From Bacteroidota bacterium (GTDB lineage Bacteria > Bacteroidota > Bacteroidia > AKYH767-A > OLB10), in assembly GCA_947453935.1 (NCBI GenBank), contig CANGJU010000008.1, forward strand, positions 1 to 49,936: 49,936 bases of DNA. Reading direction: 5' to 3'. The stretch's first letter is position 1. Each line of letters starts with the position of its first letter. The notes beneath the pieces are model-generated. The model was given only the letters and a program-made list of their open reading frames with translations. It ran no database searches and was not told the origin of the DNA. Below, piece by piece: positions 19,083 through 21,290 of the stretch. Both the position numbers and the translations under genes were made by a program.

Positions 19083-19101
19083 TTGAAAATTGAGATAAAA
19101 T

Positions 19102-19132
19102 AAAAAAGGTTCGGAATTTCCGAACCTTTTTT
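19102..19132. terminator. Bidirectional terminator
   Basis: aaaaaaggttcgg-aattt-ccgaacctttttt. Confidence 0.88.
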
Positions 19133-19153: not shown

Positions 19154-19351
19154 TTAAATACCTGTTGTTGAAGCAGCAGTTTCAGTAGAAGCTGTAGCGT
19201 CAGTAGACTCAGTAGCTGGCATTTCAGTAGCAACTTCTTCAGTAGCAGTTACTTCTTCAGTAGCAGTAGCTTCTTCAGTTTTTGCTCCACCGCAAGATGA
19301 TAATGCAACAACGAAAGTTGCAACAGCAAAGAATGTGAATAATTTTTTCAT
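19154..19351 (-). CDS. Small low-complexity (Ala/Thr/Glu-rich) lipoprotein
   Basis: MKKLFTFFAVATFVVALSSCGGAKTEEATATEEVTATEEVATEMPATESTDATASTETAASTTGI; lipobox LSSC. Confidence 0.75.
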   Translation of the reverse strand: MKKLFTFFAVATFVVALSSCGGAKTEEATATEEVTATEEVATEMPATESTDATASTETAASTTGI

Positions 19352-19566
19352 TTTGTTTGTTTTTGATTTTGGTTAAACTTACTGCTTAATACCCCAATTA
19401 AATTTTAGTAACCCAATTTTTTCTCGATTTTTTGAAATATTTCTTAAATTATTGAAAATCAATATTAAAAATTGAAACTGAATGCGGGTTACTACAAAAT
19501 AATTGCGGACATTTGCTTTTAGTAAGGGTTACCTTTTACAATAAAACGAATTAAAGACAAACCAGC

Positions 19567-20163
19567 ATGAATCAGGTTCAACCTGTTGCCGAAATTCAAG
19601 TATTGGAACTGCTCCAGGCAGGTGATGATAAAACACTTAAACTAGTTTATCGTCAGAATTACCAAACTGTTGTAAGTTTCATTTTAAATAACGGCGGCTC
19701 CCTGCAGGAAGCGAAGGATACTTATCAGGAAACAATTATTGTTTTTTGTGAGAAACTAAAGCAGGATGGATTTGAGTTAAACTGTAGCATTAAAACGTTC
19801 TTGTATTCAATTGGTCGCCGCCTTTGGCTGAAACAGCTAAAACGTAAATCGCGTTTTACAACCGAGGAGTTGAATGATAGTGAAGACTATCTTCCCTTCG
19901 AAGAAGATAAAACCGATGAACGCGAAGAGCAATTCTACGCAATGAATCAAGCTCTTGAACAATTAGGCGAACCGTGTAGATCTATTCTCAAAGACTTTTA
20001 CATCAATGGTAATAGTATGGAAGAGATCACACAGAAGTTTGGATATACAAATGCTGATAATGCAAAGAATCAGAAGTATAAATGTTTGAAAAGGCTCAAG
20101 AAGAGTTTTTTCGAAGTCTTTAATAACGGATTAGTAACCAATGAAGAACTCCAGAGAGATTGA
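19567..20163 (+). CDS. RNA polymerase sigma factor, sigma-70 family (ECF type)
   Basis: Region 2: AKDTYQETIIVFCEKL...SIKTFLYSIGRRLWLKQLKRK. Region 4: LGEPCRSILKDFYINGNSMEEITQKFGYTNADNAKNQKYKCLKRLKK. Confidence 0.9.
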   Translation: MNQVQPVAEIQVLELLQAGDDKTLKLVYRQNYQTVVSFILNNGGSLQEAKDTYQETIIVFCEKLKQDGFELNCSIKTFLYSIGRRLWLKQLKRKSRFTTEELNDSEDYLPFEEDKTDEREEQFYAMNQALEQLGEPCRSILKDFYINGNSMEEITQKFGYTNADNAKNQKYKCLKRLKKSFFEVFNNGLVTNEELQRD

Positions 20164-21241
20164 TGAGATTATTGAAAGGTACTGTTTCGGGGAATTAACT
20201 CCCGAGGAGCTTCGTATTTTTGAGCAGTGGTTAGAAAATGACCCTCAATTATCAGCATCAGTAAATGATTTTTTATCACTTAAAAATGCGTTTGAAAATT
20301 ACCGCGAACGCTTAGCACTAAAAAAGAAAATAGAACGTATTCACGAAGAAGTTGAATATGATTTATTCAATGCACCTGCACCTTTAAAAGTTGTGAAGTC
20401 GGCTAGGGCTTCAAGAGTAATTTTCGGAAAAGAGCGCAGTTATTTTTCAATCGCAGCGGCTATCAGCATCTTCTTATTAAGTGCTGTTTCATTGTCACTA
20501 TGGATATTTGGAAATGGTTCTTCAAAAAATCAAAATGCCTACCGCGAATTACGTCGTGAGGTAGAAAAGATTAAGAAGAATCAGAAAGAAATCATCAAAG
20601 GAATCAATGCCGATGATGTGAAAGGTGATTTAAAACAATTTACAGGAACAGGTTTCGCAATTACAAAGAATGGTTATGTATTAACTAGCTATCACGTTGT
20701 TCAGGATGCTAAACAAATTTATATCAGCAACGAGTCTGTTGGTCAGTTGCAGGCAGAAGTTGTTTATTCTGATAAATCACTTGATTTAGCAATGCTGAAA
20801 GTAAAAGAAGACAGCTTCCCAGGATTTAAAGAAATTCCGTTTGCTCTAAAAAAATCAATATCTGATCCAGGTGAAAAGGTGTTTACACTTGGTTTCCCTC
20901 GCGAAGATTTAGTATTTGGTGATGGATCTATCAGTTCGTACACCGGTTTCGAAGGTGATACAACCGCTTATCAGATAAGTATTCCAGTTAACCCAGGTAA
21001 TTCTGGCGGACCATTATTCGATAATCAGGGTAATTTAATAGGAATTATCAGTGGTAAAAATGAATCAGCAGAAGGTGCTTCCTTTGCTGTTAAGTCTAAA
21101 TGGATAAGCGACTATATCAATTCTAGAAATGATGACAACGCTGTCCTTTTACCAACTAATAAATTATTAATTGGTGTTGATCGAGCAACTCAAATTAAAC
21201 GACTCAAAGAAGTAGTTTTTATGGTCAGAGTTTTCAATTAA
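20141..21241 (+). CDS. Membrane-anchored trypsin/HtrA-like serine protease with anti-sigma-like cytoplasmic N-terminus
   Basis: N-term IIERYCFGELTPEELRIFEQWLENDPQLSASV, one TM helix (YFSIAAAISIFLLSAVSLSLWIF), then GTGFAITKNGYVLTSYHVV (His), SLDLAMLKV (Asp), NPGNSGGPL (Ser). Starts inside the sigma-factor CDS. Confidence 0.85.
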   Translation: MKNSREIDEIIERYCFGELTPEELRIFEQWLENDPQLSASVNDFLSLKNAFENYRERLALKKKIERIHEEVEYDLFNAPAPLKVVKSARASRVIFGKERSYFSIAAAISIFLLSAVSLSLWIFGNGSSKNQNAYRELRREVEKIKKNQKEIIKGINADDVKGDLKQFTGTGFAITKNGYVLTSYHVVQDAKQIYISNESVGQLQAEVVYSDKSLDLAMLKVKEDSFPGFKEIPFALKKSISDPGEKVFTLGFPREDLVFGDGSISSYTGFEGDTTAYQISIPVNPGNSGGPLFDNQGNLIGIISGKNESAEGASFAVKSKWISDYINSRNDDNAVLLPTNKLLIGVDRATQIKRLKEVVFMVRVFN

Positions 21242-21262: not shown

Positions 21263-21290
21263 AAGCGGGTCTCATAAAGCCCGCTTTTTT
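21263..21290 (+). terminator. Rho-independent terminator
   Basis: aagcggg-tctcataaag-cccgctt + T run. Confidence 0.85.

Follow-up and report, generated by a model that had tools for sequence, protein, structure and literature searches.

Can a membrane anti-sigma factor and the protease that would initiate its own destruction be parts of a single polypeptide? The question is raised by a locus in a 49,936-nucleotide stretch of Bacteroidota DNA (contig CANGJU010000008.1, assembly GCA_947453935.1; the whole stretch is called the window here), in which an ECF sigma factor gene is followed by a gene whose product, the initial annotation suggested, may merge envelope sensor, protease, and sigma anchor in one protein.

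A conserved two-gene locus

The sigma gene (19567..20163, + strand) encodes 198 amino acids and overlaps by 23 nt the gene for the 366-amino acid fusion protein (20141..21241, +), with coordinates, lengths, and overlap as initially annotated. The sigma factor matches the Sigma70_r2 profile (E 7.5e-8) and the TIGR02937 sigma70-ECF model (E 7.1e-18), and the second protein has anti-sigma-like, transmembrane, and HtrA-like protease segments in series. The operon consists of these two genes, and a terminator-like repeat read from the sequence, AAGCGGG/CCCGCTT followed by a T-run (21263..21290, +), lies 3' of the fusion gene. Two cysteines of the sigma factor, Cys137 (LGEPC) and Cys173 (KYKC), are invariant across 23 diverse members and could have a structural or redox-related role.

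The full-length fusion was found in 59 of 395 sampled Bacteroidia genomes, representing roughly a dozen families and including the cultured genera Pontibacter, Hymenobacter, Adhaeribacter, and Rufibacter. In all 149 testable fusion loci, the fusion gene is immediately preceded by a sigma gene in the same orientation (120/120 in a first set and 29/29 in a second; a 121st locus of the first set, L132, runs into a contig end and was left out). These loci include some genomes taken twice, and the number of distinct fusion proteins is 136. The linkage to a sigma gene, proposed earlier as a check on the reading, is therefore invariant, with no unlinked fusion among the testable loci. Since order, strand, and near-contact are the same in 149 loci from many families, the pair is neither a chance reading frame nor an assembly artefact. 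No sigma gene adjoins any of 28 protease relatives without a detectable N-terminal domain; two of the 28 (L016 and L044) are fusions cut at a contig start, making the strict count 0/26. Conversely, a sigma homologue scoring above 229 bits occurs in 57 genomes, every one of which carries the fusion; in the remaining two fusion genomes, the sigma factor is divergent or the contig ends. The flanking genes otherwise vary between lineages. TolC/HlyD-type efflux genes downstream were considered as part of the system and rejected, being present only in the window's own family.

Domain architecture of the fusion protein

Residues 1-78 (20141..20374, +) are predicted to form a cytoplasmic three-helix domain resembling those of anti-sigma factors. 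An AF2 model of the domain alone has helices at residues 4-15, 21-33, and 35-77 (pLDDT 92.5). When the model was compared by Foldseek with 350,542 PDB chains, the best eight matches were all anti-sigma domains (RslA, DdvA, and RsiW), with MucA and the SigK anti-sigma factor at lower rank; for so short a domain, each E-value exceeded 1. An anti-sigma profile from NCBIfam, NF052375, recognises 40 of 49 family members (best E 1.6e-7), with the window protein scoring under the curated cut-off. When the domain's sequence was searched against PDB entries for an anti-sigma structure, no match was significant (DdvA, E 1.2), and no RseA family profile in Pfam or NCBIfam matched the fusion protein. The initial annotation had noted a single cysteine and the absence of a zinc motif, and both observations hold: Cys15 is the sole cysteine of the window protein and is conserved in close relatives only, so there is no HxxxCxxC motif. 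Distance-tree correlation (mirror-tree) did not single out the N-terminal domain as coupled to the sigma factor. The partial distance correlation of sigma with the N-terminal domain given the protease was 0.40, and that of sigma with the protease given the N-terminal domain was 0.67; the method was not discriminating and was dropped as evidence for coupling.

The one transmembrane helix described initially is a single hydrophobic segment at residues 104-122 (20450..20506, +), located by hydropathy, covered by a helix at 99-123 in the model, and with an excess of K/R on its N-terminal side. Its flanking residues predict an N-in/protease-out orientation in 102 of the 136 distinct fusion proteins and the reverse in 10, which would place the protease outside rather than in the cytoplasm; a cytoplasmic protease had been named as evidence against the reading. 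Following the membrane is a predicted periplasmic juxtamembrane helix (residues 130-158; 20528..20614, +) with the conserved sequence YxELRREVExIKxxQ.

The HtrA-like protease domain occupies residues 165-330 (20633..21130, +) by profile and fold matches, and the fusion protein matches Trypsin_2 across the entire model (E 1.4e-25). The intact His, Asp, and Ser motifs reported at the outset are confirmed as His185 in SYHVV (20693..20695, +), Asp215 in SLDLAML (20783..20785, +), and Ser288 in GNSGGP (21002..21004, +), each invariant in 108 of 108 distinct proteins. A crude motif test had suggested that triad residues were missing from some proteins; this was rejected, as all are intact in the alignment. 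Such invariance favours an active enzyme over a dead ligand-binding fold. Invariant catalysis could also serve general protein quality control instead of self-cleavage.

The nearest folds to the protease domain are DegS-deltaPDZ and MucD. In agreement with the lack of an obvious PDZ domain in the first reading, no PDZ model is among the Pfam families matched by 49 family members or by the window protein. The position of the PDZ domain is taken by a conserved helix-strand tail (residues 346-366; 21176..21238, +), seen in both the alignment and the model. This tail was considered as a signalling element and rejected: protease relatives without a sigma gene have it too, and it is therefore a trait of the protease subfamily, a PDZ-less Bacteroidia group to which the fusion protease belongs. 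Relatives of the protease at L020-L023 and L172-L182 have varied N-termini, including MORN-like repeats in L021, with the same tail and without linkage to a sigma gene. In L028, L032, and L034, a gene on the opposite strand adjoins a canonical htrA/degP-type gene and has an N-terminus matching the anti-sigma-like domain (E 1.7e-5 to 2.3e-7).

The next-closest sigma factors, mostly in genomes without the fusion, help to place the architecture. In 18 of 20 cases, these sister sigma genes are followed by the same N-terminal domain and transmembrane helix joined to a different, unannotated periplasmic part, for which no Pfam family was matched. In the sigma tree, one branch divides the fusion-linked from the sister sigma factors (support 94/92). 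The recurrence of this N-terminal domain and membrane helix after sister sigma genes, with another periplasmic part attached, puts the protease in the position that a membrane anti-sigma factor uses for its sensor. From sequence, the most fitting description of the fusion is a membrane anti-sigma factor in which an HtrA-type protease came to occupy the sensor slot on a single occasion. The merged sensor, protease, and sigma anchor of the initial annotation is partly supported, at the level of sequence, by the anti-sigma-like N-terminal domain (from NF052375, the fold matches, and its recurrence after sister sigma factors), the predicted outside location of the protease, and the invariant linkage and triad. 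The sister systems show the protease to be one of several domains in the sensor slot. The proteins with an anti-sigma-like N-terminal domain and transmembrane helix encoded after sister ECF sigma factors (L213-L230 and L232), some of 700-790 amino acids, are candidates for uncatalogued Bacteroidia anti-sigma factors.

A divergent lipoprotein gene and a shared promoter-like element

The initial account of the locus was correct for the sigma factor and the fusion, but it missed, besides the sister systems, a small lipoprotein gene divergent from the sigma gene and a promoter-like element that the two share. The lipoprotein gene (19154..19351, - strand) is an open reading frame of 65 amino acids with a signal peptide, the lipobox ALSSC, and an acidic tail rich in Thr, Glu, and Ala; 3' of it is a terminator-like inverted repeat read from the sequence, AGGTTCGGAA/TTCCGAACCT, followed by a T-run (19095..19128, -). 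An equivalent reading frame is present at 117 of 132 fusion loci, compared with 2 of 573 control genes and 1 of 20 sister sigma genes. Members of the family have a lipobox followed by a tail of 40-70 residues, of which about 89% are T/E/A/D/S/V/P. In one family the gene is tandemly repeated and the copies have their own promoter-like element; at L134, L137, L129, L120, L131, and L111, small lipoproteins are encoded in tandem 5' of the sigma gene, and the genes have GGGTTAC-N15/16-GTATTAA copies of their own. The lipoprotein is a candidate output, protease substrate, or feedback ligand.

Alignment of sigma upstream regions revealed GGGTTAC-N15/16-GTATTAA, conserved some 10-15 nt 5' of the probable start of the sigma gene. 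In the window, the sigma operon has GGGTTAC-N15-GAATTAA (19526..19554, +) 12 nt before the start codon, and the lipoprotein gene has GGGTTAC-N15-GTATTAA (19386..19414, -), the only exact match in its genome. The GGGTTAC heptamer occurs in 125 of 134 sigma upstream regions, compared with 1.9 expected from shuffles. A slightly relaxed two-block pattern precedes 117 of 132 sigma genes and none of 573 control genes, and a divergent copy faces the lipoprotein gene at 89 of 132 loci compared with 1 of 573 controls. A pattern search for the element was used to seek the regulon in the genomes: exact sites were found in 37 of 59 fusion genomes and 13 of 336 other genomes, comparisons for which P-values overstate independence, as control genes share loci and genomes share ancestry. 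The spread of the element over about ten families is a better argument than the P-values. Some fusion genomes are without an exact site, which indicates that the element varies.

Few sites lie elsewhere. The window's own genome, an 80%-complete assembly, has exactly two relaxed sites, both in the region between the sigma and lipoprotein genes. In fusion genomes, sites away from the locus precede further small acidic lipoprotein genes in three families (L274, L277, and L279), a 287-amino acid lipoprotein gene in two members of a single family, and, in two genomes of another family (L267 and L290), a gene for a 96-amino acid protein (M[LI].KTYFKTKDYCKVKF...) with no evident signal peptide. In two species of the window's genus (L240 and L263), the element is followed by genes for a 61-amino acid protein with two transmembrane segments (MIVLKxYLI...) and a protein of 186-189 amino acids; this operon is a candidate second target in that genus. 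The element is also found immediately 5' of one sister sigma gene, G264. Most promoters predicted from the pattern therefore belong either to the switch or to genes for tiny lipoproteins. At L049, L062, and other Pontibacter loci, genes for a fasciclin-domain lipoprotein, a YflT-like stress protein, and a DUF4142 lipoprotein lie 3' of the fusion; these downstream stress genes were considered as targets and rejected, being without the element.

Models of signalling

The reading that we narrowly favour is a self-contained, three-part envelope-signalling unit composed of the sigma factor, an anti-sigma factor with a built-in site-1 HtrA-type protease, and tiny lipoproteins. The fusion would be a single-pass membrane anti-sigma factor whose cytoplasmic N-terminal domain holds the ECF sigma factor inactive and whose periplasmic part is the HtrA-type serine protease. 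An envelope signal would activate this protease to make the initial (site-1) cleavage in a periplasmic stalk, either its own or that of an adjacent copy. After further cleavage by a site-2 protease and by proteases of the cytoplasm, the freed sigma factor would transcribe the operon that encodes it and a small number of other genes, mainly for tiny acidic lipoproteins, from GGGTTAC-N15/16-GTATTAA promoters. From the RpoE/RseA/DegS/RseP pathway we infer, by analogy, the signal, protease activation, stalk cut, site-2 cut, sigma release, and autoregulation; sigma binding, promoter recognition by this particular sigma factor, and cleavage in self or in trans are putative in the same way. Sensing, cutting, and release may thus reside in one molecule. 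A site-2 protease is present in 24 of 24 relatives, and was not seen in the window's own 80%-complete assembly.

The alternative with the best standing, possible if doubtful, is a titration sensor. The protease would be a working periplasmic quality-control enzyme or substrate receptor, and binding of misfolded proteins or of the acidic lipoprotein tails would alter the conformation of the anti-sigma factor or expose it to another protease, with no self-cutting. The invariant triad is compatible with this, the predicted regulon is rich in small lipoproteins whose disordered-looking tails are possible feedback ligands, and the S1C-like domain of RsgI9 has been described as cellulose-binding (PMC12203970); however, invariance of the triad in 108 diverse proteins exceeds what ligand binding needs, and contact with the lipoproteins is putative. 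Somewhat less probable is an elaboration of the three-part unit into a feedback homeostat for a layer of surface lipoproteins or for their trafficking, with the tails of small acidic lipoproteins made under sigma control occupying the protease and stopping the signal.

It is improbable that the protease has a constitutive housekeeping role and is joined to the anti-sigma domain by chance, the signal passing through the membrane or juxtamembrane helix and another site-1 protease. The conserved YxELRREVE of the juxtamembrane helix and the separate DegP-type protease encoded in the window's genome are consistent with such an arrangement, but the protease has kept its slot across about a dozen families, and sister sigma factors use other domains there. 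That the N-terminal domain does not bind the sigma factor and the two genes are merely co-transcribed is very improbable. The stronger partial distance correlation of sigma with the protease is in its favour; against it are the anti-sigma profile and fold matches, the same N-terminal domain after sister sigma factors without the protease, and a predicted topology that puts this domain with the sigma factor.

If the protease does cut its own anti-sigma factor, as in the three-part unit, a multi-protein stress relay has been compressed into two genes, and Ser-to-Ala mutants would directly probe how envelope signals start regulated proteolysis. The predicted regulon is very small, which should make the output easy to measure.

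Comparison with described systems

A literature search found no paper on this fusion or its promoter; the ECF reclassification (10.1093/nar/gkaa1229) was outside that search and may list the fusion group as an unnamed group. The RpoE/RseA/DegS/RseP pathway of E. coli and AlgU/MucA/AlgW of Pseudomonas have in common with the present system an ECF sigma factor, a single-pass membrane anti-sigma factor, and a periplasmic HtrA-type protease. The similarity to the RpoE pathway extends to the protease fold, closest to DegS-deltaPDZ and MucD, and to the site-2 protease of relatives. Here, however, the anti-sigma factor and HtrA protease are one polypeptide with no PDZ domain and no RseA-family match, and the predicted targets are tiny lipoproteins rather than factors for outer-membrane-protein folding. 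DegS/MarP-type S1C proteases also have an N-terminal membrane anchor followed by an HtrA protease domain, but the fusion differs in lacking PDZ and in having a cytoplasmic anti-sigma-like domain and the C-terminal helix-strand tail.

The class I anti-sigma domain (ASDI) proteins, as described in the relevant parts of PMC7406223, have an N-terminal helical domain of sigma-binding type and variable sensor domains, and are encoded beside an ECF gene; 44% of the anti-sigma class are without the zinc motif. The fusion shares the N-terminal helical domain, the absence of zinc, the fused domain in the sensor slot, and the adjoining ECF gene, and those parts of the paper do not mention a trypsin/HtrA fusion. 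According to the same source, ASDIs adjoin only 6% of Bacteroidetes ECF genes, leaving most Bacteroidetes ECF sigma factors without a recognised anti-sigma neighbour; the fusion family supplies a partner, a predicted promoter, and predicted targets in four genera that can be grown.

RsgI9 from Clostridium thermocellum (PDB 7sjy; PMC12203970) is an anti-sigma-I factor with S1C and NTF2 domains, and resembles the fusion in being a membrane anti-sigma factor with an outside S1C peptidase-like domain. Its partner family is sigma-I (its own partner sigma is unassigned), whereas the partner here is an ECF sigma factor of the TIGR02937 type. RsgI9 also has a self-cleaving periplasmic domain in addition to NTF2, and its S1C domain is described as both protease-like and cellulose-binding (PMC12203970). 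Neither the RsgI N-terminal domain nor the self-cleaving periplasmic domain had a Pfam match in the fusion, in which a helix is predicted at 130-158. The closest precedent for the architecture is RsgI9, an anti-sigma/S1C fusion associated with another sigma family.
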